Position numbers and translations under genes: made by a program
Notes under the pieces: generated by a model
What the model was told of the DNA's origin: nothing
The model's database searches: none
Seen by the model: the letters and a program-made list of their open reading frames with translations, nothing else
In this document: piece by piece, positions 5,754 through 29,320 of the stretch
Layout of the letters: every line of letters begins with the position of its first letter
Position numbering within the stretch: the first letter of the stretch is position 1
Source of the DNA: a virus
IMG/VR virus record: IMGVR_UViG_3300020442_001032
Location: 1-48,728 of that record
DNA: 48,728 nucleotides
Direction: 5' to 3' (one strand)

Positions 5754-6613
5754 TATTTACTCCAATCTAAAGTTTGCCAGTATGCAGGTACAATCTGACT
5801 TGTATCAAGATGTTCCATTGCGGATCCAAACCACTTCTCTGGGTTCGGTGCAATGACATTGCCTCTACCGTTCTGTAACCATGCACCCCACCAACTAAAT
5901 GAACTGTTGGCAATGATAGCACCAGAACATAGAGACATGAGACACAGATCTACCTGAGGCAGAAGAGTGTTCTGTAGTTGACCAGTGCCATCACGATTCT
6001 GATATGGATACCTACCGTTGTCTTCGTTGAACAAGAACCTATCTTGTTTGAAGAACGATTGTTCCTTACACCAATCAAGATCATCAGTAAAGACAAAACA
6101 AGGAGTGTCTTCACTCCAGAAACTTAACGCCTCCTCAAAAAATGATATCGGGAGGATGGGGTGATACTCTTCCCTTCCGATGTTGTCAGACTGGCGAACA
6201 TGCAAGAAAATAGGAGGAGTGTCCAGACTATCAATAAAACCTTTACAAGGTTCCAAGTAATCTTTTCTAAAGGTGAAGTCCTCACGGATCTCATCAGCAA
6301 TGTGAACAAAGTAATTCTCTGTCTGCATATAGGCATCAATGTTGACGCCATCTGTACAGTAGAAAAGACTCTCGTCAAATGCGTGAGTCTTCTCATTGAT
6401 TGTCATCGCATCATTGAAACCAATGTTCTCTGGTTTGCAATGAACCATCTCAAAGGTCTCAAAGAGACCATAATTATCACGGTGATTACAATCTTCTGGA
6501 GGAATCATCCAGTTGTAATGATTGTAATTAGCAATGCCTCTAAGGGAAGCATACTGAAACATTTGATTACCCAAACGTCCATTGCTTCCCAACCTATTAT
6601 AACTAATCGTCAA
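5753..6613 (-). CDS. GT11 fucosyltransferase-like protein (copy 3, TTG start)
   Basis: A 286-residue GT11 paralogue with GSNGRLGNQMFQYASLRG and SGAIIANSSFSWWGAWLQ. The central motif reads FLHVRQSDN instead of HVRRGD, so the second conserved Arg is Gln. The start is a TTG that overlaps the TGA of the dehydrogenase gene upstream (TTGA). It is supported because the N-terminus MTISYNRLGSNGRLG lines up with MAISFQGMGNEGRLG of copy 2 and no ATG is available before the first motif. Whether the changed motif alters donor use is unknown. Confidence 0.83.
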   Translation of the reverse strand: MTISYNRLGSNGRLGNQMFQYASLRGIANYNHYNWMIPPEDCNHRDNYGLFETFEMVHCKPENIGFNDAMTINEKTHAFDESLFYCTDGVNIDAYMQTENYFVHIADEIREDFTFRKDYLEPCKGFIDSLDTPPIFLHVRQSDNIGREEYHPILPISFFEEALSFWSEDTPCFVFTDDLDWCKEQSFFKQDRFLFNEDNGRYPYQNRDGTGQLQNTLLPQVDLCLMSLCSGAIIANSSFSWWGAWLQNGRGNVIAPNPEKWFGSAMEHLDTSQIVPAYWQTLDWSK

Positions 6614-7761
6614 AGGTCAATCCTCCAAGTTGGTTCATAAATCTCGGCTTCATTTCTGACAAAGATGATGCGATCATCATACTTGTCATATAGATCATCA
6701 GCATACTTTTCAATAACATCAGAGATGTCCTGAACATATACTGTGTATCCTCTTTCCAGAAGATCTGTTACGAGTCTATACCTTGGACTCTCTACAACCA
6801 TATCAGATCCTTTCTTGAAAGCAATGCTCTCGATACAATATGGGAGATTGTCAACGTTCTGTTCGATACAATAGTTACAGATAAACTCTGCATGTGTATC
6901 ATTGAAGTCATCCGTGACCTTAGGGAGACTATACTGTAGACCAACTCTATCAGCATAGTGCCCTAAAGCACGGTTGTCTCGGGGCAAACAAGGGCCACCG
7001 AAGCCTAACCCGTAACGTAGATATTTAGAACCGATTCTAGAGTCGTCTCCAATAGAACTGAGGATAGAATCAATCTCATTTCCACACCCTGAGTTGTATA
7101 GGATTTGTCCCATCATGTTGGCATAACTGATCTTGTATGTAAGGAAACAGTTGATACCAATCTTTGTAATCTCTGCCGCAGTGCGAGACATTTCATGGAA
7201 CCTGACAGGAGTGTCTTGAATATCCTCAAAGATACCCTTGATAGTATCAAAACCTTCTTCATCTTCACCACCACAGAGAACCATGTCTGCGGTTTTCATG
7301 TCATTAATAATAGTACCCTGAGCAATAAACTCTGGGTTATAATAAACCCGAATACCTCTGGAAGACAGAGCCTCTGCAAACTTGTCAGAGTATCCAGGGT
7401 TAGTAGTGCAACCAATCACAAAGATCTTTCCCTCTAGATTAGGGAAGTTGACAAGATCTTCTAGTACATCATCAACATAAGAACAATCGTAACTGCCATC
7501 CTCTAGTGAGGGAGTAGGTACGAAAGTAAAAATAACATCAGATCTCTTGATGACCTCAGAGTTAGAAGTTGTGGCAGTCAACTTAGTTGTCCGCATCAAC
7601 ATGTCTTCTACTTCTGGTTCATTAGTGTAGATCTCTTTGTTAGTAAGTCCAGAGATATACTTTGAGTTAATGTCAGATACAATTACATCATGACCAGCAT
7701 CTTCACACAGCAGTGCAAAGCAGAGACCTAACCTGCCTGCACCAATCACACCAAGTTTCAT
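6610..7761 (-). CDS. ugd: UDP-glucose/GDP-mannose 6-dehydrogenase family
   Basis: These enzymes oxidise a nucleotide sugar to the uronic acid in two NAD-dependent steps. Seen: Rossmann motif VIGAGRLG at residues 5-12, VIFTFVPTPS, YNPEFIAQGT, the helix AAEITKIGINCFLTYK and catalytic C258 in GFGGPCLPRD. Length of 383 is slightly short of the usual 390-450. UDP-glucose versus GDP-mannose as substrate cannot be decided from these motifs. NAD demand may explain the NAD+ synthetase gene immediately upstream, whose stop overlaps this ATG. Confidence 0.88.
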   Translation of the reverse strand: MKLGVIGAGRLGLCFALLCEDAGHDVIVSDINSKYISGLTNKEIYTNEPEVEDMLMRTTKLTATTSNSEVIKRSDVIFTFVPTPSLEDGSYDCSYVDDVLEDLVNFPNLEGKIFVIGCTTNPGYSDKFAEALSSRGIRVYYNPEFIAQGTIINDMKTADMVLCGGEDEEGFDTIKGIFEDIQDTPVRFHEMSRTAAEITKIGINCFLTYKISYANMMGQILYNSGCGNEIDSILSSIGDDSRIGSKYLRYGLGFGGPCLPRDNRALGHYADRVGLQYSLPKVTDDFNDTHAEFICNYCIEQNVDNLPYCIESIAFKKGSDMVVESPRYRLVTDLLERGYTVYVQDISDVIEKYADDLYDKYDDRIIFVRNEAEIYEPTWRIDL

Positions 7762-8522
7762 TATTCCTCCAAAAGATACGTGGGAATGGGATCAATCTTA
7801 TGTCTATTTTGTGTATAGAACTTCTGCAATACTGGAAGAGCTGGACCTGAACCAGTTTCCATTGCCTCTTCTAGTTGTTCATAGGTTGCACCAATCTGAT
7901 CTTCATCAGTGCGACCATCATCCCACAGACCATCTGTGGGTTTAGCGTCAATAATCTCAGGAATTACTCCGAGGAATCGTCCGAGTTCTCGGACTTCTGT
8001 TTTGTAAAGGTCAGCAATTGGAGCAATGTCAATGCCACCATCACCGTACTTAGTATAAAAACCGATACCATAGTCTTCTACTTTGTTGCCAGTACCAACT
8101 ACAAGACCACCAACAGATTGTGCAATCTGATAGAGAGTCATCATGCGGAGGCGGGACCGACTATTCGCCTTCGCAAGATCGTTGATAGCATACTCCACAC
8201 CACACTCATCACCAATAGTAGAAACAAACTTACCAAAAGTTTCAGAGAGATCTACCTTGAGAACTGTGACGTTTTCATATGTCTTTTCCAACCAGAACAG
8301 ATGAGCATCGGAAAGAGTTTCTTGTTCTAGTTTCTGATTGATCGGCATACCCACAGCATAGACAGGCAGACCAGTCTTTGCTGCAAGTGTGGACGCAACA
8401 GCAGAATCAATTCCACCCGATACACCCACAACAAATCCATTTAATTTATTCTGATCATTATACCTACACAACCAACCGACTATATTACATGTCAGTTTTA
8501 GATAATCTGTAATACGGTTCAT
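7761..8522 (-). CDS. nadE: NH3-dependent NAD+ synthetase
   Basis: NadE converts nicotinate adenine dinucleotide to NAD+ using ATP and ammonia. The PP-loop GVSGGIDSAVAST (about residues 33-45), RSRLRMMTLYQIA, GTGNKVEDYGIGFYTKYGD and the following GDGGIDIAPIADLYKTEV are family hallmarks. At 253 residues it is the short form without a glutaminase domain. It lies between heme oxygenase and the NAD-dependent sugar dehydrogenase with overlapping starts and stops. It would raise NAD supply for the several Rossmann enzymes of the operon; this link is inference. Confidence 0.93.
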   Translation of the reverse strand: MNRITDYLKLTCNIVGWLCRYNDQNKLNGFVVGVSGGIDSAVASTLAAKTGLPVYAVGMPINQKLEQETLSDAHLFWLEKTYENVTVLKVDLSETFGKFVSTIGDECGVEYAINDLAKANSRSRLRMMTLYQIAQSVGGLVVGTGNKVEDYGIGFYTKYGDGGIDIAPIADLYKTEVRELGRFLGVIPEIIDAKPTDGLWDDGRTDEDQIGATYEQLEEAMETGSGPALPVLQKFYTQNRHKIDPIPTYLLEE

Positions 8523-9199
8523 CGAAAAATAAAGCCAAAGAGTACATTGAGGAAGGATCGGATACCATTACTATCCTTAGTGATCTCATCGAACATATAC
8601 ATGTTCAATCTAAAAGCATAGTTAGCTTCTGCTACCAGTGCATTGACCTGAGACTCTGACAAATCAAGAGAGTCTAGTCTTTCTCTATATTGTTTTTTAA
8701 ATTCTTTAGTGTCTGAAATCTTTTTGAATCCATAGAAAGCAAGACCCTGTTGATCCAAGTTCAATGCCTTCTGTGCAATATTCTTAAGGATCTGTCCACC
8801 AGAAAGATCTCCAAGGTATCTGGTGTAGTGATGTGCAATAAGAAGATAAGGTTCTTCCTTTGCAATCTCTCTAATACGATGGACATATGTATCTGTGGAT
8901 GGACACTTCTTATCAGCCATCTCACGTCTCCAACATGGACCATAGAAGTACCTAAGATCCAAACCAATAGAAGACTCTCTATGAAGTTCATCCATAACAA
9001 TAGGACCAACAAGAGGATCTTCTCTCAACTTATTCAGTTCTTGTTCCATGGCATCATAGACGTAGTATAGGTTAGAAAGTAGTTGGCTATAACTATCTTT
9101 ACTAACCACACCCTTTAGAAACGATGCGACAAAGTTTGTATTCTCCGCCATGGAGTGGGACTCTTTAGTCCCAGTTTTCAATGCACTACTCAGTTTCAT
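8519..9199 (-). CDS. ho1: heme oxygenase
   Basis: Heme oxygenase opens heme to biliverdin, CO and iron using ferredoxin, the first step of phycobilin synthesis in cyanobacteria. The start MKLSSALKTGTKESHSMAEN contains the proximal heme ligand (H15). YYVYDAMEQEL, AHHYTRYLGDLSGGQIL and the C-terminal NYAFRLNMYMFDEI match cyanobacterial HO1. Length of 226 is slightly shorter than host forms. Cyanophages often pair this gene with a bilin reductase; none is visible in this window. It overlaps the methyltransferase gene upstream and nadE downstream. Confidence 0.95.
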   Translation of the reverse strand: MKLSSALKTGTKESHSMAENTNFVASFLKGVVSKDSYSQLLSNLYYVYDAMEQELNKLREDPLVGPIVMDELHRESSIGLDLRYFYGPCWRREMADKKCPSTDTYVHRIREIAKEEPYLLIAHHYTRYLGDLSGGQILKNIAQKALNLDQQGLAFYGFKKISDTKEFKKQYRERLDSLDLSESQVNALVAEANYAFRLNMYMFDEITKDSNGIRSFLNVLFGFIFR

Positions 9200-9974
9200 C
9201 CTCTTTCCTTGTAGCTAGAATGACTGTGTTCTCATAGTCACGTCCAACGTCGAAGGTAAACTCCTCCTTGATACGATCAATGAAAACATTATAATGGTTA
9301 TCATTAAAATTGACAAGGTTATAGATGATGTATGCATACTTAGCGTTCTGAATAATCAGATTAAAATATGCCATCTGTGAATCCAAGTCACATTCAGACA
9401 GAGCATAGTTACTAATGAAGAGATCTACATCCTTAATCTCATCCAATTCTGTAGTAGGAATACAGGTAACTTTATCTTTAAGGTCGGGGAACTGATCCAA
9501 ATACTTACGTTGCAAAGCACTGACCTCAGGGAGATCAACTAGAATATACTCATCAAATTCACAGACCATACTGAGAACTCTACACAGTCCACCATATCCA
9601 CCACCAACTTCTACAATCTTACTAACCTCTGCACCATTAAGCATGAATGACATCTCAAAGGTATTCTTCATATACCTGAGAGTTGTTGGAGAGACGGCAC
9701 CATCGAGGCCAGGGTAAGGGAAAGTCTCTGGATTGCCGTACTTATCATTCTCTTTAAAGAGTTCGATGTTTTGTTCGACTCCTTCCTCACTCATCTCCCT
9801 ACAGATGTTGAGATAACATTGTCCTTGATCCTTCAGTACATGTTCTAGAATAGTTTTATACTTAGGGTTAGATTTAAAATTAGCAAAGGCATCATCATCA
9901 GCAACAGCTTCTTTACATGCCTCAAGATATTCAACGGCAATTTGATCTTCTGCCTGCCATCCGCTACGTGTCAT
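9186..9974 (-). CDS. putative sugar O-methyltransferase
   Basis: A 262-residue SAM-dependent methyltransferase: IVEVGGGYGGLCRVL is motif I, followed by EYILVDLPEV and DLFISNYALSECD. The N-terminal helical region and GLDGAVSPTTLRYMKN resemble the putative sugar O-methyltransferase group found in LPS and capsule clusters. The acceptor is probably a sugar of the glycan made by this operon. It overlaps genes on both sides. Confidence 0.78.
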   Translation of the reverse strand: MTRSGWQAEDQIAVEYLEACKEAVADDDAFANFKSNPKYKTILEHVLKDQGQCYLNICREMSEEGVEQNIELFKENDKYGNPETFPYPGLDGAVSPTTLRYMKNTFEMSFMLNGAEVSKIVEVGGGYGGLCRVLSMVCEFDEYILVDLPEVSALQRKYLDQFPDLKDKVTCIPTTELDEIKDVDLFISNYALSECDLDSQMAYFNLIIQNAKYAYIIYNLVNFNDNHYNVFIDRIKEEFTFDVGRDYENTVILATRKEDETE

Positions 9975-10930
9975 AATGGTTTAATCCTCTGAGATCTTTG
10001 TGGGTCTAATTGTACAAAATAATTTTGATAAAGATAGTCTTCTGCGACTCTCATATTCAAAGCAATTTCAAAGTTTTCTTTGATAGCTTCCTTCTTTGAT
10101 TCGTAATACTCGGAAGTCAATTTGTCCCAAGGAATATTATTCCAAGGTTGTCCTTCATCCAAGAAGATAATACCTTCTGGATTAAAATACTGTGCTACAC
10201 CAGCAGTACCATAGTATACAGGAATAGTACCACAAGCAAAGCAGTCAGTCAATTTCTCTGTGAAATAGGTAGGATAGTTTGCATTCTCTACTGCGAAGGA
10301 GAACATATAATCCCTAAGTGCTCTAGACTTTTCCGTAAGAGGAAGTTCTTGAGGAAGTCCCCAACCAAATAGACTATCACCGCCTTCATGTTGAAAGAAT
10401 TGTTCTACTACTTTGAGACGACGCTGGTGTCCCACAGTATATCCTTTGTTAGATGCGACCATTGAGACAAGTTTTGACTTGGGGTAGATGTCTCGATCCA
10501 TAACCCAAGGAGCAGCATTAGAGAGGCAATAAAGAAATTTACCGTCAGGACCAACCTCATCCGTGAGTCTTTGGTCAGCAGTAAAAATGCCATCCACACG
10601 ACTAGCAACAAAATCATAGTTTTCTTCAATGAATTTGTATTGATCTGGAATGATCTCTCTTGATTCTAACAGCCAAATAAATTTTGGCAAGTCGGAGTTA
10701 TCTTCCAGAGCCTTAAGGGCCAAACTATTTACATATAAATTGACGTAACCAGATCCATCATGTACCCATTGAGTATAGACAGATCTGTTATTAGCCGATG
10801 TAGATGGAAGTAGATCGTCGTTACAAATCAGATTGATTGGAAACTTTCTTGAGGCATCAAGTACTGGAACATCAATACCTGTTGGGGATGCGGCCGCCTT
10901 TTCAACAACATCTTTAATTTTATTATCCAT
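9971..10930 (-). CDS. GT10-family alpha-1,3/1,4-fucosyltransferase-like protein
   Basis: A 319-residue protein whose second half has the GT10 C-terminal domain: FSFAVENANYPTYFTEKL, then DCFACGTIPVYYG, then EGIIFLDEG. The family transfers L-fucose from GDP-L-fucose to GlcNAc or glucose. The N-terminal half (KFIWLLESREIIPDQYKF) is the variable acceptor domain. With the three GT11 proteins this makes four enzymes of fucosyl-type families in one operon. Its ATG overlaps the end of the SDR gene upstream. Confidence 0.88.
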   Translation of the reverse strand: MDNKIKDVVEKAAASPTGIDVPVLDASRKFPINLICNDDLLPSTSANNRSVYTQWVHDGSGYVNLYVNSLALKALEDNSDLPKFIWLLESREIIPDQYKFIEENYDFVASRVDGIFTADQRLTDEVGPDGKFLYCLSNAAPWVMDRDIYPKSKLVSMVASNKGYTVGHQRRLKVVEQFFQHEGGDSLFGWGLPQELPLTEKSRALRDYMFSFAVENANYPTYFTEKLTDCFACGTIPVYYGTAGVAQYFNPEGIIFLDEGQPWNNIPWDKLTSEYYESKKEAIKENFEIALNMRVAEDYLYQNYFVQLDPQRSQRIKPL

Positions 10931-11771
10931 AATGAGGTTTCATATCGTTATAGACTTTTTCGATTCCATCTTCGATGGATGTTTTTGGACTCCAGATTTT
11001 TTTAATCGTTTCGTCTGGGACATTACGAGCATCCTTCTGCACCTCGTCTTTGGATGCTGCGGGAACAACTTGAACTTCTTTACCGTCTTTTGCAAAAAGT
11101 CCCTTAATGATTTCTCCAACTGCCAGAATATTTGTACTGACAAAAGAAGTAATATGAAGAGGGTCAAAAGAGGTGAACTTATGATAGTTTTCCATGACCG
11201 CCTCAAGAGCCTCACAGCAATCTTCAGCGTAAAGGAACTCTCTCTGTTCTGTACCATCGGTTAGCATATCAATAGTACCTGTCTCAAATCCCTTCCTGAT
11301 GAAATCAGTAATGACATGAGCCTTGTCCATGTCCTTTTCGATTCCATATACATTCCAGAACTTAACGATCAATCCATTCAGAGACTCAGTATATAGTTCA
11401 CCCATACGTTTCATAACTCCGTATGGAGAGTAACTCATCTGACTCATCTGGGATGATGCAAAGACAAATGGTTTTTTATACTGTTCAAGCAACCCAAAAG
11501 TCTGAGTCATCAGACGAGAATTGTTATCAATAAACCTGAAAGTATGTTGATACTTCTTCAGATACCTAGATCCACCCACATCAAAGGCCAAGAAGAACAC
11601 AAAGTCAGAGTTCTTAATGGCGCGATCTAGATTATGATTAGGGATCTGTGTAAGATCTTCACCAGGATGACGTGCAACGTCAAACGGTACAACTTCATGA
11701 CCTTTCTTAGTAAGATATTCAGCCAGGTATGCACCTACCTGGCCACTAGATCCAAGAATTAGAATTTTCAT
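10923..11771 (-). CDS. NAD-dependent epimerase/dehydratase (extended SDR)
   Basis: Extended short-chain dehydrogenase with Rossmann motif LGSSGQVGAYLAEYL at the N-terminus, FASSQMSQMSYSPYGVMKR containing the catalytic YxxxK, and FWNVYGIE. Sugar-nucleotide epimerase, dehydratase or reductase activity is likely; the exact reaction is unclear. I choose the ATG that forms ATGA with the stop of the upstream methyltransferase gene over a TTG two codons upstream. Confidence 0.82.
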   Translation of the reverse strand: MKILILGSSGQVGAYLAEYLTKKGHEVVPFDVARHPGEDLTQIPNHNLDRAIKNSDFVFFLAFDVGGSRYLKKYQHTFRFIDNNSRLMTQTFGLLEQYKKPFVFASSQMSQMSYSPYGVMKRMGELYTESLNGLIVKFWNVYGIEKDMDKAHVITDFIRKGFETGTIDMLTDGTEQREFLYAEDCCEALEAVMENYHKFTSFDPLHITSFVSTNILAVGEIIKGLFAKDGKEVQVVPAASKDEVQKDARNVPDETIKKIWSPKTSIEDGIEKVYNDMKPHYG

Positions 11772-12355
11772 GCCCAATCAATTACATGTTTAGAACCAAA
11801 GTTTACTAGTCCTGTTCCACTCATGTGACCGACTTCAGTAACATCAATCTTAGGTTCTTCAATAGCATCCCACATGTCTTGAACTTCAGGCCAAGCAGGA
11901 CCAATGTCATCGAGGAGAAGAATTCCTTTCCAACCTTTCTCTTCTAGGAACTCCATCATCTCCACTTCCTGAACACCATCATGGGGATCTACATCAATCA
12001 TGATGATAGAGATCTTGTCCCACTCAAGCGTCTCATCCTCTCGGAAGTCTTGAATCTTGAAGGTGATGTTATCTTTTTCAATCTGACTTGCACCTTGTTC
12101 AACCAGATCATAACTAATGACCTTATTGGTTTCGTTATAAGACAGTGCCAGTGCAGACCCACCGTTACGTGTACCTACATCCAGAATGTAGGATTGATTG
12201 AAGAACGTAGAAAGATATCCATAGAGACGATACTCACTCTGTCCCGCAGACAACCAGTCATTAGGGTTGAGAGAGATAGCCTCAAGAGCAGAGTGATCTA
12301 GATTCTGTACGTCTTCCTTGTTGATTTTAATAGTTTTCTTAGTGACCTTACGCAT
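11768..12355 (-). CDS. class I SAM-dependent methyltransferase
   Basis: A 195-residue protein with motif I YILDVGTRNGGSALALS, VISYDLVEQG (acidic end of strand 2) and ISIIMIDVDPHDG, as in the Methyltransf_24/CmcI-like group that methylates sugars or small molecules. The final third contains LLLDDIGPAW. Its stop overlaps the next ATG and its start overlaps the end of the GME-like gene, so it probably acts on the same sugar pathway. Confidence 0.75.
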   Translation of the reverse strand: MRKVTKKTIKINKEDVQNLDHSALEAISLNPNDWLSAGQSEYRLYGYLSTFFNQSYILDVGTRNGGSALALSYNETNKVISYDLVEQGASQIEKDNITFKIQDFREDETLEWDKISIIMIDVDPHDGVQEVEMMEFLEEKGWKGILLLDDIGPAWPEVQDMWDAIEEPKIDVTEVGHMSGTGLVNFGSKHVIDWA

Positions 12356-13409
12356 TTACCAATTCCTTTTGTGACGAAGTTTCAACCGCTTTGCGGGATT
12401 TAATTTGTTCAGAGATCCAAGCATAAGTCTTGGCGATACCCTCTTCTAGGGTCTGACTGTAGTCCCATCCAAGTTTTTCGCGGATGAGATCATTGTTAGA
12501 GTTACGACCACGAACACCAAGAGGTGCATCGAGTTTATGGTTCTTAGTAATAACCTTACCAGATACCTTGGCAGCAGTGGCAACTAGTTCATTAATAGTT
12601 ACCATCTCCTCAGAACCAATATTAACTGGTCCCATGAACTCACTGTCCATCAGACGGCGGGTTGCTTCAATACATTCATCGATGTACAAGAAGGATCTAG
12701 TTTGTAGGCCATCTCCCCACACCTCAATAGCTCCACCCGTCTCAGGGACGTAGGCGACCTTTCTACAAATTGCTGCGGGAGCCTTCTCACGTCCACCTTC
12801 CCAAGTTCCCTCAGGTCCAAAGATGTTGTGATAGCGAGCAACCCGAACAGGAATATTATAGTTACGGTTATAAGCAAAGTAGACACGTTCAGAGAAAAGT
12901 TTCTCCCATCCATATTCGGAGTCTGGGTCTGCTGGGTATGCGGATTCTTCACGGCAATCAGGGTTATCAGGGTCCAGTTGATTACGTTCTGGGTACATAC
13001 AGGCAGAAGAACTGTAGAAGATCTTCGTCTTATTACAACCCCTGATCTGATTAGCCTTATGAACTGCATCCAAAACATTCAAGTTAATGGAAGCAGAATT
13101 ATGCATAATATCTGCCGAGTGTTCATCAGTAAAGATGTATCCTGCACCACCCATATCAGCAGCGAACTGATAGATTTCATCGAAGGTATCCTTACCAACC
13201 TGCACCAGTTTTCTGACTGCCTCTGCATCCCTAAGATCATCTCTTCGGAATTCATCTGCTGCAGACTCAGAGAACTCAGGGTACTTAATATCAACGCCGC
13301 GAACCCAGTACCCTTCGGACTTGAGGCGTTTTACCATGTGACTCCCAATAAAGCCACCAGCACCAAGCACCAGTGCTGTCTTCTGAACTGTCATAGAATC
13401 GTTAATCAT
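12348..13409 (-). CDS. GDP-mannose 3,5-epimerase-like SDR
   Basis: GME converts GDP-D-mannose to GDP-L-galactose (and GDP-L-gulose); it is best known from plant ascorbate synthesis. The protein has Rossmann GAGGFIGSH at 16-24, FAADMGGAGYIFTDEH (matching the GME loop around the active site), C137 in SSSACMYPE, Y166 and K170 in SEYGWEKL, and NIFGPEGTWEGGREKAP, a stretch I know mainly from GMEs. Cys, Tyr and Lys of the GME active site are all present. Length of 353 fits. GDP-mannose would come from the host. An alternative ATG five codons in (MTVQKTALVLG) is possible. Confidence 0.83.
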   Translation of the reverse strand: MINDSMTVQKTALVLGAGGFIGSHMVKRLKSEGYWVRGVDIKYPEFSESAADEFRRDDLRDAEAVRKLVQVGKDTFDEIYQFAADMGGAGYIFTDEHSADIMHNSASINLNVLDAVHKANQIRGCNKTKIFYSSSACMYPERNQLDPDNPDCREESAYPADPDSEYGWEKLFSERVYFAYNRNYNIPVRVARYHNIFGPEGTWEGGREKAPAAICRKVAYVPETGGAIEVWGDGLQTRSFLYIDECIEATRRLMDSEFMGPVNIGSEEMVTINELVATAAKVSGKVITKNHKLDAPLGVRGRNSNNDLIREKLGWDYSQTLEEGIAKTYAWISEQIKSRKAVETSSQKELVNA

Positions 13410-13416
13410 TACGTTG

Positions 13417-13424
13417 TATTTAGT
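13417..13424 (-). promoter_or_regulatory. late-promoter-like box before the GME-like gene
   Basis: ACTAAATA on the minus strand, including the stop codon of the upstream SDR gene. The same variant occurs before two structural genes in the window. It is only 7 bases from the first ATG, which would leave almost no leader, so the box may be coincidental. Confidence 0.25.
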
Positions 13425-14172
13425 GGGGTTGTGGATCGTTCACATCAAGGATATCAATGGTCGGAAACCAACCCATTTCTCTCATCTTTGTAGTGTCGGC
13501 AACCAATTCATCAGGTTCATGAGGAGTTTCTTTCTTTATAGGTAGGTGTCCCTGACCCATAATTTGTGCCAACTCTAGTACCGATGTAGATTTTCCAGTA
13601 CCAATATCAATAGTACCACAATAACTACTTGGAATCAAATATGCAATGGCTCTACACACATCAGAAACATGAATCCAATCACGTCTATGATTTGTAAGAT
13701 ACCCAGCAGTATTATCTTTTAACATTCGGTAAAGCATATCTTCCCGACTGTCTTGTTCCGCCCACACATTGAAAAATCTCATCCCAACACTGTTAGGAGG
13801 AGCCATGGCTTCATTTACTTTTTTAGTAGTGGCATATGGATTCCTCCACCACTCATAAACACCAGCAGAACTGGCATATAATAGTCGGGTTTCAGTGTCC
13901 CTGCAATAATCAAAAATAGGTTTGGATTTTTCTACATTATTTTCCCAGAATGTTTCTGGATCATCAATACTATCCCTTAGATTTGCAAAGGCAGCAAGGT
14001 GAATAACACAATCAAACTTTGGAGTAAAAAGATCTGCATACTCATTGAAGTTAGCAATATCACATGGAAAATCTAACCCAACAACATTCTCTCCAAGAGC
14101 AAGTTCATACTTAAGATGATACATGAGAGCCTTACCAATAAAACCCTCACTACCTGTTACTAAAATCCTCAT
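13420..14172 (-). CDS. NAD-dependent epimerase/dehydratase (extended SDR)
   Basis: Rossmann motif VTGSEGFIGKALMYHL, CVIHLAAFANLRDS, LLYASSAGVYEWWRNPYATTK with catalytic S/Y/K, and RDWIHVSDVCRAIAYL are all typical of UDP-glucose 4-epimerase-type SDRs. At 250 residues it is shorter than the usual 310-340, mainly in the C-terminal substrate domain, so the substrate cannot be guessed. It lies one base before the plastoquinol oxidase gene's stop, within the same operon. Confidence 0.83.
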   Translation of the reverse strand: MRILVTGSEGFIGKALMYHLKYELALGENVVGLDFPCDIANFNEYADLFTPKFDCVIHLAAFANLRDSIDDPETFWENNVEKSKPIFDYCRDTETRLLYASSAGVYEWWRNPYATTKKVNEAMAPPNSVGMRFFNVWAEQDSREDMLYRMLKDNTAGYLTNHRRDWIHVSDVCRAIAYLIPSSYCGTIDIGTGKSTSVLELAQIMGQGHLPIKKETPHEPDELVADTTKMREMGWFPTIDILDVNDPQPH

Positions 14173-14173
14173 G

Positions 14174-14677
14174 TCATTTAATAATTTGGATGGCGTTCAA
14201 TAATTCTTCTCGATGATTAATCTCATCATTCATTATTTCTTCAATTTTAACATCATCAGGATGATCTTTCAAGTATTTACTGTATGTGTGTGCTGCATGG
14301 TCTTCTACTTCGTAGGACAGATGGTATGCAGACTTAGGAGCCATCCAGTAATAAACCACATTGACCCAATAATAGATAAGTACGAGGTGTCTGGCGACAA
14401 AGCGATCCACCCAATAAGCATTACCGCCCCTGCTCTCCATATACTCCAGATGTTCTGTTTCATTGACTGATTGTGCGAAGTGTTCTTTCATCAAGTAAAG
14501 ATGTTCTGGTCCACGTAGGCCTAGACTTTCTCTAAGATGCAACACACTCAAAAAAGCAAAATAGGGTGCTCGAGCAATCTCCTCAAGCACCCAAAATCTT
14601 TGAAAGTCTCTCCCACGATATAAGAAATCCAGTATTGCAACTGTAATCTTAAGAACTACCGTGTTAAATGTCTTCAT
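14174..14677 (-). CDS. ptox: plastoquinol terminal oxidase (alternative oxidase family)
   Basis: PTOX oxidises plastoquinol with O2 in thylakoid membranes and relieves over-reduction of the photosynthetic chain. All di-iron ligands of the alternative oxidase family are visible: E32 in LEEIARAPYF, E73 and H76 in NETEHLEYM, E125 in EVEDHAAHTY, and E152/H155 in NDEINHREEL. WVDRFVARHLVLIYYW is also typical. At 167 residues it is compact, as cyanophage versions are, and has no signal peptide. It overlaps the 2OG-oxygenase-like gene upstream by four bases. Confidence 0.93.
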   Translation of the reverse strand: MKTFNTVVLKITVAILDFLYRGRDFQRFWVLEEIARAPYFAFLSVLHLRESLGLRGPEHLYLMKEHFAQSVNETEHLEYMESRGGNAYWVDRFVARHLVLIYYWVNVVYYWMAPKSAYHLSYEVEDHAAHTYSKYLKDHPDDVKIEEIMNDEINHREELLNAIQIIK

Positions 14678-15363
14678 GCGTCCATTGAATCCATGTACTG
14701 TTTGTCATTTAGCCCTGCTGTCTGTACTTGTGACAACCCAATGGATCCTTGATACCATCCAGTCGCAATGTACTTATCAGACATAGGAGGGTTACCTCTA
14801 TGTAGATGAGTATAACTCCCAGGCCAAATTACGACAGTACCTTTAGTTGGTTTTATCTTCAATCCCTGATAGAGAAACTCAGTTTCTCCACCATCTTCAA
14901 CATCATTCAAGTAAACCATCCAAGCCATGGTTCTTGTGTTGAGGTTCCAATTAATGTTCTCCCCATGGAACAAATGATACCCCTCAGTGGGTTTCGTATG
15001 CTGCATCAAACATACAGAACTAACATAATTAAAGTTAGTCAAGTAAGGATACTGATTAATATAAACTCCCAAACACTGATTTACAAAACCCATCAAGTCC
15101 CTAGCTTCTCCAGGAGAGAATGCATCAAGACAGATTTGTTTATCCTTTACATGTGTATAATTTCTGGGGATGACTTGTTGAGCTTCATTCATGTAATTAA
15201 TAAGATAATCACAGAAGTCGGGGTTTACAGCTCCCCTATAAATTCCAATAAAGTCAGTGTGTTCGGGTTCAATATTGATACCCATGGGTTCATGATTCAT
15301 AATTGATTTGTATGCTCGCCACTTATTTTTGACTGAAATAAGAAACAGGCGGGGTAACCCCAT
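14674..15363 (-). CDS. prolyl-4-hydroxylase-like 2OG-Fe(II) oxygenase
   Basis: The double-stranded beta-helix core is visible: GYHLFHGEN (iron-binding His/Glu), AWMVYLNDVEDGGETEFLY, then KGTVVIWPGSYTHLHRG with the distal His and SDKYIATGW at the end. This arrangement is frequent in marine phages. Acceptor unknown; protein or sugar hydroxylation are both possible. I use ATG MGLPRLFL; a GTG two codons upstream and an ATG 21 codons downstream (MNHEPMG) are alternatives. The core starts only at about residue 30. Confidence 0.8.
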   Translation of the reverse strand: MGLPRLFLISVKNKWRAYKSIMNHEPMGINIEPEHTDFIGIYRGAVNPDFCDYLINYMNEAQQVIPRNYTHVKDKQICLDAFSPGEARDLMGFVNQCLGVYINQYPYLTNFNYVSSVCLMQHTKPTEGYHLFHGENINWNLNTRTMAWMVYLNDVEDGGETEFLYQGLKIKPTKGTVVIWPGSYTHLHRGNPPMSDKYIATGWYQGSIGLSQVQTAGLNDKQYMDSMDA

Positions 15364-15378
15364 CCGCACCAGTCGGCA

Positions 15379-15386
15379 TATTTATT
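15379..15386 (-). promoter_or_regulatory. late-promoter-like box (AATAAATA)
   Basis: AATAAATA on the minus strand, overlapping the stop codon of the upstream gene and 16 bases before the ATG of the prolyl-hydroxylase-like gene. It would allow late transcription of the sugar operon from PTOX onward. Support is the sequence match only. Confidence 0.4.
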
Positions 15387-15843
15387 GTCCATCCGACGAG
15401 GACTTAATGTTACCAGCAACTACTATTCTACCATCACAATGGTTCTCTGGAACAGAGTGTGGTTCATCTGTAAAGATGACACACATTCCATCATGAGGTT
15501 GAACAACATATCCACTAAAGTCTAATGGGGAACTGCCTGGAGGAGCAGAAACATAATAAACAAATGAATATTGACTAGTACCATGTCTATGTTCACGGGC
15601 ATAATCACCGTAATTATATACGGCACCCCATAATTGATACTTTGATGTATCTTTATCTAGAGACAGTTGATCTAGAACCCAATCTTTTAATTTAATAAAT
15701 GGTTCGGGATATGTATTATACCCCGTATGTTTTTCAACTACAAGATTGGTTGATTCTTCTTTGCTGTTGGGAAGAAAGTCTATCCATGATTTTAATTCCT
15801 CATTTAAGGAAGCACTATCAGGATAGTCAATGATATTAATCAT
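15382..15843 (-). CDS. 2OG-Fe(II) oxygenase-like protein
   Basis: A 153-residue cupin-like protein with YAREHRHGTSQYSFVYYV (HxH pair) and CVIFTDEPHSVPEN (distal His), followed by DGRIVVAGNI with an Arg in the position of the 2OG anchor. It fits the small 2OG-FeII_Oxy_5-like group. The start MINIIDYPD is chosen because its ATG overlaps the stop of the upstream zinc-ribbon gene (TAATG); a longer start would extend into that gene. Confidence 0.7.
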   Translation of the reverse strand: MINIIDYPDSASLNEELKSWIDFLPNSKEESTNLVVEKHTGYNTYPEPFIKLKDWVLDQLSLDKDTSKYQLWGAVYNYGDYAREHRHGTSQYSFVYYVSAPPGSSPLDFSGYVVQPHDGMCVIFTDEPHSVPENHCDGRIVVAGNIKSSSDGQ

Positions 15844-16094
15844 TACCAGAATCCTAAAGGACAAGTAGTACCACCAAATCTAACCTTGGTTGCCATGAAA
15901 CAACCACACTCTAAGCATCTGTTACTATCGGAATCATAACGTCCACAAGAGCGACAGATTTCCATCCTAGCATCGATGAGTTCATCTTCAGCCATGACAG
16001 AACCTGATTTAGCATAATGTCTAATAACATCAAAAGCAGCCTTGCTGAATGAGGCAGCTTGTACAGTTATCTTTGGTAGTTTTTTCTCGTCCAT
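15843..16094 (-). CDS. small zinc-ribbon protein (DUF6171-like)
   Basis: An 83-residue protein with a C-terminal four-Cys (plus one) cluster: RMEICRSCGRYD, then NRCLECGCFMATKV, then TTCPLGFW. This C-x2-C...C-x2-C-x-C...CPxG(F/K)W pattern matches DUF6171-type proteins found in many phages; function unknown, metal binding likely. The N-terminal half is helical and basic. First gene of the tightly packed sugar operon. Confidence 0.75.
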   Translation of the reverse strand: MDEKKLPKITVQAASFSKAAFDVIRHYAKSGSVMAEDELIDARMEICRSCGRYDSDSNRCLECGCFMATKVRFGGTTCPLGFW

Positions 16095-23231: not shown

Positions 23232-24314
23232 TCAACTACCTAAACCTCTTCCTTTATCATAATTATCTTTACCACCATAACGTGCCATGGTTTCAATATA
23301 GTTTTTGGTTGACGTAAATCCTCTCTTCTTTGCATCTGCTGCTGTGTTATCTTTATCTTTCTTAGCTCTCTGCATCTTAGCAATCTTTCTCTTAGTATCA
23401 CTAGTTTCATTAGGGTTCTTAGCACCCTTCTCTTTCTTCTTACCTTGAGGGTTGATAGCGTTACCTCTACTTGATCTGAGACCTCCTGTCTTTACCAGAT
23501 CCTTACGAACTGCTGCCATAGCAGAACCCTTCATGGTTCCACCTTTCTTAGATTCTTTACCAGTCTGAGGATCCTTACCCTTCTCTTTAGCATAACGAGT
23601 AAGTTCAGATAGAGTCTCAACTGCCTCGGCAATAATCTCTACAGACTTCCATAGATTATTCTCAGAAACATATGTTTCTACTAAGTCATCAAGATCCCAT
23701 CTAGAAACATCATACCCCTCAGTCTCTAGATTCATATACCACTCAGTAAACTTCTCAGCGTGATGTTCTCTTAGAGAAGTTTTATATGTTTCATACTCTC
23801 TTCTATGTCTACCAACAGACTCATCTACAGTCTTTCTACGACCACCACTTGTGGGTTGATCGTGCTGAATAGGTCTATCAGTCTTTTTCTTGGCGACAGC
23901 TCTCTTAGAACCATCAGGATTGATAAAGTCTGAAGGATAGGTTGCTTCCTTAATACCCTTTTCCTTTCTCTTTGCTAATGCCTTAGCAAGAATTCTCTTA
24001 CGTGCTGCAGACTGTTCATCCTTAGGAACGTTAAACATGTCACGATCAGTCTTCAACTTCTCATCAGGTTTGTCATAACCCTCTACCATCTCACTATCTG
24101 GTTCGTATGAACTTTTTTGAAATTCTTTATACAAAGCATGGGCTTCACCATGTCTTCCTTCCTTAGTAGACTTCTTGCTCATATCGAACAACTGTTTCTT
24201 AGAATACTTGTGTCCCTTTAAAACAGAAGACATCGCATCAGAAGACATTCCCTTCTCTTGAAGATACACTTCCTGGTATGCTTCTTGAAGTTTATCGTTG
24301 GAAGATCGGTCCAT
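23232..24314 (-). CDS. basic virion-type protein (360 aa)
   Basis: A Lys/Arg-rich, mostly helical protein: MDRSSNDKLQEAYQEVYLQE at the start, EGRRHREYETYKTSLREHH-like helices in the middle (GRHRREYETYKTSLREHHAE) and a low-complexity basic C-terminus ending YGGKDNYDKGRGLGS. Similar modular pieces occur in cyanophage structural proteins. No enzymatic motif. It is driven by a late-promoter box 27 bases upstream that is divergent from the fibre gene's box. Confidence 0.68.
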   Translation of the reverse strand: MDRSSNDKLQEAYQEVYLQEKGMSSDAMSSVLKGHKYSKKQLFDMSKKSTKEGRHGEAHALYKEFQKSSYEPDSEMVEGYDKPDEKLKTDRDMFNVPKDEQSAARKRILAKALAKRKEKGIKEATYPSDFINPDGSKRAVAKKKTDRPIQHDQPTSGGRRKTVDESVGRHRREYETYKTSLREHHAEKFTEWYMNLETEGYDVSRWDLDDLVETYVSENNLWKSVEIIAEAVETLSELTRYAKEKGKDPQTGKESKKGGTMKGSAMAAVRKDLVKTGGLRSSRGNAINPQGKKKEKGAKNPNETSDTKRKIAKMQRAKKDKDNTAADAKKRGFTSTKNYIETMARYGGKDNYDKGRGLGS

Positions 24315-24340: not shown

Positions 24341-24348
24341 TATTTATT
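24341..24348 (-). promoter_or_regulatory. late promoter box (AATAAATA), leftward
   Basis: AATAAATACG on the minus strand, 27 bases before the ATG of the 360-residue basic protein. It forms one half of a divergent pair. Confidence 0.7.
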
Positions 24349-24353
24349 AGATC

Positions 24354-24361
24354 AATAAATA
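24354..24361 (+). promoter_or_regulatory. late promoter box (AATAAATA), rightward
   Basis: AATAAATAGAAC on the plus strand, 31 bases before the ATG of the 900-residue fibre-like gene. Only 5 bases separate it from the leftward box. Confidence 0.7.
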
Positions 24362-24391: not shown

Positions 24392-27094
24392 ATGGCAAGA
24401 CAGGGAATATTCACTGGATTTACGCCGAATGATGGTCTGGGAGACTCACTTGCCGCTGGTGCGGTTAAGGTTAATGATAATTTCCTAGAAATTTACCAAA
24501 CGTTCGGTGATGGAATCAACCTAAGTGCTAATGCAGGCAGTGCTGGAACTTGGGCAAAAGTAGCTGAGTATGGAATCAGTACAAGTAAGTACGTAGGTAT
24601 AGGAACAGAACTACCAACATCACAATTGCACGTTGCTGGTAATACATTACTAGCAGGTATCACTACAGGAACATTTGTCGGTGATGGATCTGGACTAACT
24701 GGTGTTACTGCTACTGGATCTGGTGTTGTAATTAAAGATAACGGAACACTAATTGGTGTTGCACAAAGTATTAACTTCGGACAAAGACTAGATGTAGGAC
24801 AAGTCTTTGGTGGAAATGTAACTATTGATGCTGTTGATTACGTATCCTACGCAAACCTATCGGGAGTTTCTAGTTACACTGCTATTGCAGGATACTCTTC
24901 CGTCACGGATTACTCTCCACTAGCAGGAGTATCTTCATATACTCCAAATGCAGGTGTAGCAACATATGCACAGTCAGCAGGTATTGTTACTTACGCAGCT
25001 GCATCTGGTGTGGCAACTAATGCTGGTGTATCAGAGTACGCAAAACTGGCAGGGGTCTCCACATACGCAGGTAGTTCTGGAGTATCTACGTTATCTGGAT
25101 ATGCAAGTACATCTGGTATTGCAACAGTAGCACAGAACTTAACAGGAACTCCCTCTATTACTATTGACAATATCAATTCTGCAATTGGTATTGTAACCTT
25201 CCCTGGTCAAGGAAGTAAAATGCGTTTCGACTTTGATGCAACAGGTGATCTACCTGCTGCAACATCGTGGAGAGGTATGTTTGCCTATGCAAATAACCTT
25301 AAGAGAGCATACGTTTCTACTGGAACCACCATGGGTGGTTACAACGGATGGAGACAGATCCTACACCAAGATGAGTATGGAAACTACTTCACTGTAGGTG
25401 TCATCACTGCTTCTAGATTCTCTGGTGATGGTTCTGCACTAACAAATCTACCTTCAACGGACAGTATCTGGAGATCAAACGCTACTGGTATCAATACCCT
25501 TGGCAAGGTTGGTATCGGAACAACCACATGTGTTGAAGCACTGAACATCACAGGTAATATCAACCTTGATGGAAGAATGGATGGTACAGCAACCAACAAC
25601 ACTCTTCCCTTCCTGTGGTCAACATACTCATCTCTACCTCAAGCATCAGATTACCACGGACAGTTCGCACATGCACATGACATGGGCAAAGCATACTTTG
25701 CACATGCTGGAAGATGGGTTGAGTTAGTAGATAGAGCAAATGATGGAACTGTCGGTACATCCACAGACAACTATATCGTAGGTGTAATTACTGCCACAGA
25801 ATTCAGTGGTACTATTAGTGGACTGACAAGTACAGCAAATATCAATACCACTGGTGTTATTACCGCAACCAAATTCGTCGGTGATGGTTCTGGTCTAACT
25901 AATCTACCTGGCGGTGGAGGAGGCGGAGGAGTCGCTGGTGTCGTCGTTCAAGAAGAAGGAAGTACAGTAGGTACGGCAGGAACAATCAACTTTGTTGGTG
26001 CTGGAATGACTGCAACTCTCTCTGCTGGAGTCGCAACAGTTCATGTAACATCTTCTGGAATCCAAGTAGAGACAGATCCAATCTTTGTATCTTCCGCTGC
26101 ATACACAATCACTGGAATCCAAACATCACAGTGGTCAAGTGCATACAGTTGGGGTAACCATGCATCGCAGGGTTATCTATCTGGAAGTAGTAACCTCGGT
26201 GATCTCAATAATGTTTCTAATGGAACACCTTCCACCAACCAAGTTCTGAAATGGAGTGGTTCTCAGTGGGCTCCTGCTGATGAATCAGGAGGAGGCGGTG
26301 GTATTGGACCTAGTGACAGTATCAACACGACGGGTATCATTACTGCTGGATTAATAAACGCTGCAGGATCTGGTGTACCAGCAATCATATCAGATTGGAA
26401 TTCTTCAAAGCATCTCCAGATGAGTACTGGTGACAATGGAGGTGGATTCAATATAACTGATGTAAATTATTTTGCTTTTAATCATCAACCATATGCAGAT
26501 AGAGGAACAAATAATAATTTAACAGAAAGACTTCGTATATCTTCTGGCGGTGCAGCGTTCTCTGGTATTGTAACTGCTTCAAATTTTGTTGGTGATGGTT
26601 CTGGACTGACTGGAGTTGTTGGTTCTGGATCTGGTGTCATTATTCAAAATAATGGAACTCCAGTTGGCACTGCTGGAACAATTAACTTTGCTGAAAACCT
26701 CACAGCAACTACTGTCTCAGCAGGTATTTGTACTGTAACTGCTACTGGTGGAGCAACTACTGGAGTTACAACCTTTACTGCAATCGCTGCTACACCACAA
26801 ACCATTGATACTTGGTCTGCTTCCACCTACTCTAGTGGTGAGTACACACTAACCATTGGAGTTGGAACGTATAGGCAAATGCAGAAATTCATGATTATGC
26901 ATGATGCTGGTGGAGCAGGAGTGACCTCAACTGCATATTATCAAGAGTATGGAATTATGTATTCACCTACTCAGATTGTATCTGTATCCGCAGCATACAA
27001 CGCAGGAAACATCGTAGTTTCTATCACACCAGAACAAGGTATTTCTGGAACCACAACATGTCGTTTCACTAAAACTCTACTGGGAGGCATCTGA
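24392..27094 (+). CDS. tail-fibre-like structural protein (900 aa)
   Basis: The N-terminus GFTPNDGLGDSLAAGAVKVN followed by DNFLEIYQTFGDG is shared with the 1098-residue protein encoded on the other strand. The body is Gly/Ser/Thr/Val-rich beta-type sequence with at least four copies of a module FxGDGSxLT (SFVGDGSGLT-like), often followed by SGVVIKDNGT...INF. A Gly run (about residue 510) and a Trp-rich knob-like section (WSSAYSWGNHASQGYLS) are present. A trimeric virion fibre or baseplate-attached protein is the natural reading. First gene of the rightward late module. Confidence 0.75.
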   Translation: MARQGIFTGFTPNDGLGDSLAAGAVKVNDNFLEIYQTFGDGINLSANAGSAGTWAKVAEYGISTSKYVGIGTELPTSQLHVAGNTLLAGITTGTFVGDGSGLTGVTATGSGVVIKDNGTLIGVAQSINFGQRLDVGQVFGGNVTIDAVDYVSYANLSGVSSYTAIAGYSSVTDYSPLAGVSSYTPNAGVATYAQSAGIVTYAAASGVATNAGVSEYAKLAGVSTYAGSSGVSTLSGYASTSGIATVAQNLTGTPSITIDNINSAIGIVTFPGQGSKMRFDFDATGDLPAATSWRGMFAYANNLKRAYVSTGTTMGGYNGWRQILHQDEYGNYFTVGVITASRFSGDGSALTNLPSTDSIWRSNATGINTLGKVGIGTTTCVEALNITGNINLDGRMDGTATNNTLPFLWSTYSSLPQASDYHGQFAHAHDMGKAYFAHAGRWVELVDRANDGTVGTSTDNYIVGVITATEFSGTISGLTSTANINTTGVITATKFVGDGSGLTNLPGGGGGGGVAGVVVQEEGSTVGTAGTINFVGAGMTATLSAGVATVHVTSSGIQVETDPIFVSSAAYTITGIQTSQWSSAYSWGNHASQGYLSGSSNLGDLNNVSNGTPSTNQVLKWSGSQWAPADESGGGGGIGPSDSINTTGIITAGLINAAGSGVPAIISDWNSSKHLQMSTGDNGGGFNITDVNYFAFNHQPYADRGTNNNLTERLRISSGGAAFSGIVTASNFVGDGSGLTGVVGSGSGVIIQNNGTPVGTAGTINFAENLTATTVSAGICTVTATGGATTGVTTFTAIAATPQTIDTWSASTYSSGEYTLTIGVGTYRQMQKFMIMHDAGGAGVTSTAYYQEYGIMYSPTQIVSVSAAYNAGNIVVSITPEQGISGTTTCRFTKTLLGGI

Positions 27095-27097
27095 TAA

Positions 27098-29314
27098 ATG
27101 ATTAACACAAACAAACCTAAAAATATTCTAGACAGAACAAATCTAACCTTTGTTCCTGAGGGAACAGGAGAAAAAGAATATTATGTTGGATGTTATCAAC
27201 CAGAAGATTGGGATCACATCCATAAAACTCTCATGGAAGATGGAACATTAGAAGATAATATTCCATCTCGTTCTGTAGGATGTGTTAATCCTTGCGATCA
27301 TAGTAAGAAGAGAGCAATTTATATCCTAGATGATGCAGAAGCAGATACTTTGAGGAATGATCCCCGTGTGCATTATGTAAATCTAAACTATGATGCCTAT
27401 CCAGGCACGTTTGCACCTGATCCAGAAATGATTAATACTTCTGTGCAAAGAACTCCTAGATTCCAAAAAAATGTATTAAACTATAGAGCATGGAATACTG
27501 CACCATCTGGTGGCAGACCAGAAACTGCTAGGACTAGTCTAGGATCCACTGATCTCAATAGAACAGGATATCAACTCCTAAGACATACACAATTTGATAA
27601 TCCTTGGGATGCAACAATCAATGGTCTTTCTGGATCAGATCACCAGGTTTTTGAAAGAGATATCTATCAATTAGGTGATGGTACTGGTGTTGATGCAATC
27701 GTTGCTGATGAAGGATATTGGTTAGGTCATCCAGAGTTTGTCCATTGTCCAGGAACAGATCCAGTTGGGTATCAAACAGGAAATGTATTAACTTGGAGTG
27801 GCATTTCTACTACACCAGGAACATGTGGAGTCTTAGATCTAGTTCTAGACGCACCTTACTACATTGATCCAGACTGGTTTAATGCAGACCCAGACAACAG
27901 ATTAACTCAACGTTGGGACGGAACAACTGTTCCCGTGGAATCCGTAGCAAGATCCTGGTGGTCCAACTCTTCGCAGAGATCTGTCGGATTCTCTACTATC
28001 GGAACAGTATCAGATATTAGTTCATCTTATAGTAGACCATATTGCAACGGATCAAATACTGCAAAACCAACAAACAGCACTAACCATGGCACAGAATGTG
28101 CTGGACAAGTATTCGGAAAAAACTATGGTGTTGCATACAACTGTAATCGATGGGTGATTAATGCATATGGAGCTGGATCTGCTGGAATCTCAGCAGGTCA
28201 ATTTGATGTTCAAAAACTATTCCACCTTTATAAACCAAACTACGATAGGCACTCCGCAAATAACGGAAATCAACAAAGAACGGATGGCAAAAACCCAACA
28301 CTAAGTAGTAATAGTTGGGGGTATAGATCTACCTCTTGGAATACCACAGCATACTACTGGTATAGACCTGTAGGAACTGCGGGAGAAACTTCTGGAACAT
28401 CTTATACTTCTGGTTCTCAACCAGACTTTATCGATCTACTAGGTAATTATGGAGACTGGTATAATGGTCCAAGATGTAAGGGAGAAATGGTTGACAATTC
28501 TGCTACTGGTGCGGGAGAAGAATTGATTGAGGCTGGAGTGATTTTTGTTGCTGCTGCAGGAAACTCAAACCAAACTCAAATGTCCCCTGGTGACCCAGAT
28601 TACAATAACTATTGGTCAACATCTGAAAATGGATCACTAGCTAGTTCTACTCATTCTGAATTTGGTCTCAATTGTTATAATACATTCAACCGTAGAGGTT
28701 GGCCACAGTCAATTGGAAAAACTCAGGCAGGACTATCAACGGTTGGATGTGAGTTCCCAGCAATCAATATTGGCGCACTAGATGATCAGATTAGTTCTGG
28801 TGGATATGGTGGACAAGTAACAGAGTATAAGGAAAGAATTGTAAATTATTCTGATAAAGGAACTGGTGTTGATTGTTATGCAGCGGCAGATGATACTCTA
28901 AGTGCAGAGGGTCAGAACGAATCTGATAGTGATTATAATGGAGGTCCATACCAACATCCAGAAACATATACGGGTCTTACTGTCACTGCATACGACGAAG
29001 ACTTTAGTGGAACCAGTTCTGCATGTCCTACTGCTGCTGGATGGCTTACCACTAAACTACAATATAACAGAGAATGGGGTTGGAGAGACATCAAAAACTG
29101 GTTGAAAAATCAATGTGGACCTGCAAATCCAGCCAGATTTTATTATGGTGTAGATGTAGATAGTCTATCTGCAACAGATTTTGCATGGGAAGATGTCCAT
29201 TCAACGCAAACTTCCTGGGCCGATGGTGATTATGCACCAATTGTTATCTGGGATGCACCAACAGGTTCACCTACAGAACCACAAAGACCCGAATTAACCT
29301 TCGGTTCTGAATAA
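27098..29314 (+). CDS. subtilisin-like serine protease (S8 family)
   Basis: A 738-residue protein with the complete subtilase triad: Asp204 in IVADEGYWLGHPEF, His330 in NHGTECAGQVFG, oxyanion Asn489 in FVAAAGNSN and Ser640 in FSGTSSACPTAAG. Residues about 70-97 (KRAIYILDDAEADTLRND) resemble an inhibitor-I9-type propeptide. No signal peptide is evident, in keeping with a virion protein. It is 3 bases from the fibre gene stop and followed by structural genes. Possible roles are maturation of fibre proteins or degradation of host surface proteins. Many Cys are present (more than ten). Confidence 0.9.
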   Translation: MINTNKPKNILDRTNLTFVPEGTGEKEYYVGCYQPEDWDHIHKTLMEDGTLEDNIPSRSVGCVNPCDHSKKRAIYILDDAEADTLRNDPRVHYVNLNYDAYPGTFAPDPEMINTSVQRTPRFQKNVLNYRAWNTAPSGGRPETARTSLGSTDLNRTGYQLLRHTQFDNPWDATINGLSGSDHQVFERDIYQLGDGTGVDAIVADEGYWLGHPEFVHCPGTDPVGYQTGNVLTWSGISTTPGTCGVLDLVLDAPYYIDPDWFNADPDNRLTQRWDGTTVPVESVARSWWSNSSQRSVGFSTIGTVSDISSSYSRPYCNGSNTAKPTNSTNHGTECAGQVFGKNYGVAYNCNRWVINAYGAGSAGISAGQFDVQKLFHLYKPNYDRHSANNGNQQRTDGKNPTLSSNSWGYRSTSWNTTAYYWYRPVGTAGETSGTSYTSGSQPDFIDLLGNYGDWYNGPRCKGEMVDNSATGAGEELIEAGVIFVAAAGNSNQTQMSPGDPDYNNYWSTSENGSLASSTHSEFGLNCYNTFNRRGWPQSIGKTQAGLSTVGCEFPAINIGALDDQISSGGYGGQVTEYKERIVNYSDKGTGVDCYAAADDTLSAEGQNESDSDYNGGPYQHPETYTGLTVTAYDEDFSGTSSACPTAAGWLTTKLQYNREWGWRDIKNWLKNQCGPANPARFYYGVDVDSLSATDFAWEDVHSTQTSWADGDYAPIVIWDAPTGSPTEPQRPELTFGSE

Positions 29315-29320
29315 TAAATA
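29313..29320 (+). promoter_or_regulatory. late promoter box (AATAAATA)
   Basis: TAATAAATAATAG directly after the protease stop codon and 22 bases before the next ATG, which has AAAAGG as ribosome site. Matches the late box seen elsewhere in this window. Confidence 0.65.

Follow-up and report, generated by a model that had tools for sequence, protein, structure and literature searches.

Phage tails are well known to carry enzymes that cut host sugars. The tail-spike depolymerases of other phages are virion-borne, exchangeable enzymes that act on the host surface and cut polysaccharides. Subtilisin and proteinase K belong to a cellular family of secreted enzymes, and in subtilisin BPN′ the catalytic Asp and His are 32 residues apart. 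In T4, the long-tail-fibre connector gp9 (1qex) is a free protein.

The closest described relatives of the protease studied here are the cyanophage proteins of phrog_9158, which corresponds to T4-GC 292 in GenBank notes. They include S-SSM7 SSSM7_232, P-SSM2 PSSM2_297 and the S-SCSM2R 'peptidase S8 family' protein, share the family match along almost the entire protein and have the same triad. They are annotated as hypothetical or by domain only: most labels read 'hypothetical protein', and the others are S8 family, subtilisin-like and virion structural protein. Our literature searches found no functional description of T4-GC 292 or phrog_9158 S8 proteins. In the text of PMC3037559, the S8 mention is limited to a different peptidase cluster, T4-GC518, in P-HM1 and P-HM2.

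We analysed a 48,728-nt viral stretch (the window; IMG/VR record IMGVR_UViG_3300020442_001032), where an S8 protease gene lies between a tail-fibre gene and a gp9-like connector gene (Table 1). S-SSM7 has the same fibre–protease–connector order, and its protease is 64% identical to that of the window. A preliminary description had noted an intact subtilisin-type protease here, possibly tail-associated, that could process fibres or cut host surface proteins such as an S-layer.

Table 1. Features of the fibre–protease–connector locus (window positions)
Feature	Position	Strand	Basis or remark
AATAAATA, T4-type late-promoter-like element	24354..24361	+	Sequence; 37 nt before fibre start
Tail-fibre gene, 900 aa, first of two-gene unit	24392..27094	+	PHROGs
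Fibre C-terminal domain (CTD), eight-stranded beta-sandwich, proposed protease socket	26747..27091	+	AF2, Foldseek
S8 (subtilisin-type) protease gene, 738 aa, phrog_9158	27098..29314	+	Pfam, PHROGs, AF2, Foldseek
Propeptide-like domain, residues 26–96	27173..27385	+	AF2 secondary structure
Catalytic Asp204	27707..27709	+	Conserved family motif
Asp–His insertion, residues 215–313, PYYIDPDWFN motif	27740..28036	+	Relatives' alignment
Catalytic His330	28085..28087	+	Conserved family motif
Oxyanion-hole Asn489	28562..28564	+	Conserved family motif
Catalytic Ser640	29015..29017	+	Conserved family motif
AATAAATA, late-promoter-like element	29313..29320	+	Overlaps protease stop codon, precedes gp9-like gene
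gp9-like baseplate wedge / tail-fibre connector, 245 aa	29343..30080	+	phrog_677, E 2e-42

The protease and its family

The protease ORF starts with ATG and stops with TAA. Its product matches Pfam PF00082 (Peptidase_S8) at E 8.9e-13 (48.6 bits against a gathering threshold of 21.8), as do 38 of 38 aligned relatives, and the phrog_9158 profile at E 5e-127 over residues 24–732. The four catalytic residues follow one another in the motifs VDAIVADEG, NHGTECA, AAGN and GTSSACP, all typical of the family. Of 156 relatives, drawn from phage records and from viral or genome contigs, 154 keep the Asp/His/Asn/Ser tetrad, and the other two end at a contig edge and so are incomplete. Hence the catalytic residues are invariant in all complete relatives, down to about 22% identity. 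Against eight relatives, dN/dS is about 0.18–0.26 (Nei-Gojobori). On these sequence comparisons, the ORF is not a product of chance and is under purifying selection as a protease, which bears out the earlier call of an intact enzyme.

The AF2 model, built from a 38-sequence alignment, has a pLDDT of 79 and a pTM of 0.79. Foldseek matched it to fervidolysin, proteinase K-like enzymes and subtilisins at probability 1.00, and the best 50 of the 233 PDB matches at E≤0.001 are subtilases, so the fold is that of subtilisin. The catalytic fold and the Asp-His-Asn-Ser arrangement are shared with fervidolysin 1r6v, 2b6n, 1sh7 and subtilisin BPN′, although identity to the subtilisin and proteinase K structures is only about 11–15% in structural alignments. 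The profile and fold searches were needed because the single-protein sequence search of the PDB gave one match only, a spurious one to an aminotransferase.

By residues and fold, the protease looks active and would be catalytically competent. An inactive subtilase fold, kept purely as a structural or binding module, would suit the large insertions and a slot that is shared with non-enzymatic adhesin-like proteins (see below). It should, however, lose some catalytic residues, and the tetrad is intact in every complete relative, which makes such a module the least probable of the readings weighed here.

Residues 26–96, ahead of the catalytic domain, are modelled as beta-alpha-beta-beta-alpha-beta, which at the topology level is the order of S8 propeptides. 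The I9-like propeptide suggested earlier thus agrees with the model but stays below the Pfam threshold: I9 (PF05922) has no match in N-terminal fragments of the window protein and, in two relatives, only matches of E 0.034 and 0.062 that miss the threshold. Unlike the secreted cellular subtilases, the protease lacks a detectable signal peptide, as previously noted; over the first 60 windows, the best 12-residue Kyte-Doolittle mean is 0.39.

Its Asp and His are 126 residues apart, and the cellular enzymes lack this long insertion. The insertion with its conserved motif is common to the relatives, and the spacing is smaller in P-SSM2 (83 residues) and S-SCSM1 (73 residues). Elsewhere in the chain, two relatives (L050:9932-12616 and L069:6131-8827) have about 175 more residues than the window protein between the oxyanion Asn and the catalytic Ser. 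Some loci hold two S8 paralogues, with a fibre between them in L051 and L052 and next to each other in L072, where the second has an Asp–His spacing of only 45 residues, near that of ordinary subtilases.

The window protein detects at least 19 phage records by tblastn, and more distant queries raise the number to 47, all of them cyanophages or marine single-cell viral contigs. Their hosts include several Synechococcus strains and Prochlorococcus. The search in other cyanomyoviruses proposed earlier thus finds the gene, in several of them already with an S8 or subtilisin-like label. As to whether it is a well-described cyanophage component, the gene is known and annotated, while its role lacks a description in the literature found.

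A profile-derived scan confirmed 563 viral stretches against five contigs from bacterial genomes, and therefore the family is essentially viral. The five (L155-L159) come from marine MAGs and one Pelagibacteraceae single-cell genome. These appear to be phage contigs sorted into bacterial bins, because phage-type fibre motifs adjoin the S8 gene in at least two of them (L156, L157). A cellular origin was considered and set aside, as no donor is seen beyond these marine MAG and single-cell contigs.

A late-promoter-like unit in the fibre cluster

The upstream gene matches PHROGs tail-fibre and baseplate-wedge tail-fibre connector families (best E 7e-34). The neighbours described earlier, a fibre-like gene and a cupredoxin-like structural gene, are upheld as a fibre gene and a gp9-like structural gene. 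The 'cupredoxin' name of the latter's C-terminal domain is annotation only (a relative is named PetE in S-SCSM2R), and this identity is unproven here because the gp9-like protein has no Pfam match.

Across the family, fibre, baseplate or virion structural genes surround the S8 gene in all annotated records examined. Fibre families dominate upstream, in the group of about 40% identity as well, and phrog_677 connectors downstream (33 of 47). In most loci, the fibre and protease genes meet with a 4-nt overlap or a 3-nt gap.

The T4 late promoter-like NATAAATA stands about 37 nt ahead of the fibre start, both in the window and in close relatives. Of 47 non-redundant loci, 33 have ATAAATA in the 120 nt that precede the S8-linked fibre gene, while the rate at random positions is 2.6%. 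Of 67 loci, 54 have the late motif in the last 60 nt ahead of the downstream gene. The loci are related, so these counts are not independent. No late motif was found upstream of the protease start among the loci surveyed. Exact TATAAATA shows no enrichment across the window (3 observed, 2.8 expected); this count alone is insufficient, so the late-promoter reading draws on the conserved position across loci. With the motif before the fibre and the downstream gene and none before the protease, the pattern suggests that the fibre and the protease form a single late transcription unit.

In the window, GTATTTATTAGATCAATAAATAG is a near-palindrome of two divergent NATAAATA late-promoter-like elements, at 24348(−) and 24354(+), serving 23232-24314(−) and the fibre at 24392(+). 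Farther off, at about 2574-15864 on the minus strand, are sugar-nucleotide and glycosyltransferase genes homologous to those of S-SSM7 and Sf-FS3.

The fibre C-terminal domain and the slot behind it

The fibre ends in a CTD of about 100 aa, modelled by AF2 as an eight-stranded beta-sandwich (pLDDT 89). No Pfam family was found for it. Foldseek relates it to the phage AM24 tailspike 5w5p and T4 gp9 1qex (E 1.6e-4, TM 0.72); the latter has a like fold at 12% identity, but it is a free connector while the CTD ends a fibre. Of the 148 fibres that precede S8, 111 carry the CTD, and in each of them it forms the very end of the chain. About a quarter of the upstream fibres, the group of about 40% identity, have another domain at this end, and S-WAM2-type proteases lack a CTD altogether, so docking on the CTD cannot be general.

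Seen from the CTD side, the association is strong. The window CTD finds 20 phage records by tblastn, 18 of them with the protease and the other two being one phage, S-SM2, and the S-T4 CTD finds 18, all with the protease. Among CTD fibres on viral contigs with room downstream, S8 is directly next in 60 of 75, a ratio biased upward because the survey was seeded with the CTDs of protease-linked fibres. By CTD sequence clusters, S8 is next or within 2.5 kb in 25 of 30 (one spurious cluster left out). A strict pairing of protease and CTD was rejected, being broken by S-SM2, other contigs, S-TIM54 and the S-WAM2-type proteases.

The main rival to a host-facing enzyme is an assembly or maturation protease, which trims the adjacent fibre (its CTD, for example) or itself and then stays bound. 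Such a role would fit the direct co-transcription with one fibre, the strong CTD association, and a protein expressed in the cytoplasm with its own propeptide and no signal peptide. Against it, S8 was not detected in the complete S-SM2 genome despite a CTD fibre, nor in nine more CTD contigs, mostly fragments, in a search with a positive control. Cyanophage records with the gp9-like domain number 321 and mostly lack the S8 protease; S8 itself is in 47 records. Moreover, the lectin and Ig fusions of some relatives (see below) suit a tip enzyme better. Hence fibre processing as an obligate role is disfavoured, since both the fibre CTD and the gp9-like neighbour are also found in phages that lack the protease, and maturation is in our judgement unlikely.

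Where the protease is missing, the slot after the CTD fibre holds a Laminin_G lectin, an SBBP beta-propeller, a glycine-rich protein or the gp9-like gene alone. S-SCSM1 has two CTD-fibre pairs side by side, one with a protease-lectin and one with a lectin-annotated partner. In the latter pair (L096:43829-48295), the second CTD fibre gp143 is followed by gp142, annotated as a ConA-like lectin, in which no Pfam lectin domain was found. Both gp143 and gp142 carry virion-protein tags.

Some CTD loci have a GT11-like glycosyltransferase and then S8 at the slot position. The glycosyltransferase gene stands between the CTD fibre and S8 in L172, L173, L176 and L177 (~5306-6554); it is GT11-like in L172 and has no Pfam match in L173. 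It is possibly a modifier of the fibre or the host surface.

We tentatively propose, at somewhat less than even confidence, that the gp9-like beta-sandwich at the fibre end is a common socket and that the next gene encodes an interchangeable plug, be it a protease, a lectin, a beta-propeller or a glycine-rich adhesin. The protease plug would open or release cyanobacterial surface proteins. We prefer this plug reading to that of a maturation protease, as socket and connector are both present where the protease is missing. The docking of the protease on the CTD is itself a hypothesis, drawn from gene order and the predicted fold.

Probable tail association and proposed function

Two divergent relatives bear on the location of the protease. 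S-SCSM1 gp144 (1411 aa), whose protease is 22% identical to the window protein, joins S8 to Laminin_G and is tagged '(virion protein)' in GenBank. The 2145-aa 'virion structural protein' of S-TIM54 carries a BD-FAE/carboxylesterase domain, then S8, then Ig and fibre domains. Like the window protease, both have S8 with a propeptide-like N-terminal region and lie in a structural gene cluster, but theirs is fused while that of the window is free-standing. The S-TIM54 gene (L006:6998-13435) places two hydrolases on a single structural protein.

The S-SCSM1 record has 47 CDS with the virion tag, as counted by eye over the whole record. PMC9602691 reports 45 S-SCSM1 virion proteins by mass spectrometry and names NMNAT and carboxypeptidase. 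The tags probably mark mass-spectrometry identifications, because unexpected proteins bear them, among these NMNAT, carboxypeptidase and a translational repressor, and several predicted tail genes do not.

The protease is thus very probably tail-associated, as first suspected, given its operon position, the lectin, Ig and fibre fusions of its relatives and the virion tag on the divergent S-SCSM1 protein. By this comparison, it would be located in the virion of the window phage as well. An intracellular protease, acting on host proteins in infection or lysis and placed in the fibre cluster by chance, would account for the missing signal peptide and for an S8 gene that is free-standing in most phages. 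It sits poorly with the fibre linkage conserved across divergent phages, the late-promoter-like context, the structural fusions and the S-SCSM1 tag, and we regard it as very improbable.

We therefore lean, with modest confidence, to an exchangeable, host-facing fibre-tip protease that is mounted in the tail-fibre complex and cuts cyanobacterial surface proteins. The protease would be made late in infection, on one transcript with the upstream fibre, and would fold using its own N-terminal propeptide. It would then take its place in the tail-fibre complex, with the gp9-like beta-sandwich of the fibre C-terminus as the probable mount. As an exchangeable tip enzyme, it would cleave host surface proteins during adsorption or penetration. 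Both the activity and such a substrate are predictions.

Of the two roles suggested earlier, cleavage at the host surface is the better fit, given the adhesin-like proteins that occupy this slot elsewhere, but an S-layer target has gained no specific support. A more general surface protein would be the likelier substrate, since the hosts of phages with the gene include several Synechococcus strains as well as Prochlorococcus. The family itself was already annotated; its role as an exchangeable protein-cutting tip is the new proposal.

If this is true, the protease plug would be the protein-cutting counterpart of the polysaccharide depolymerase tail-spikes, a comparison of how they work. To our knowledge, the phage receptors of marine Synechococcus and Prochlorococcus are poorly known. 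A widespread and conserved tail-associated protease would mean that phages attack the surface proteins of these cyanobacteria too. The CTD-plus-plug pattern may also serve as a handle for locating and comparing the host-contact modules in marine phage contigs.
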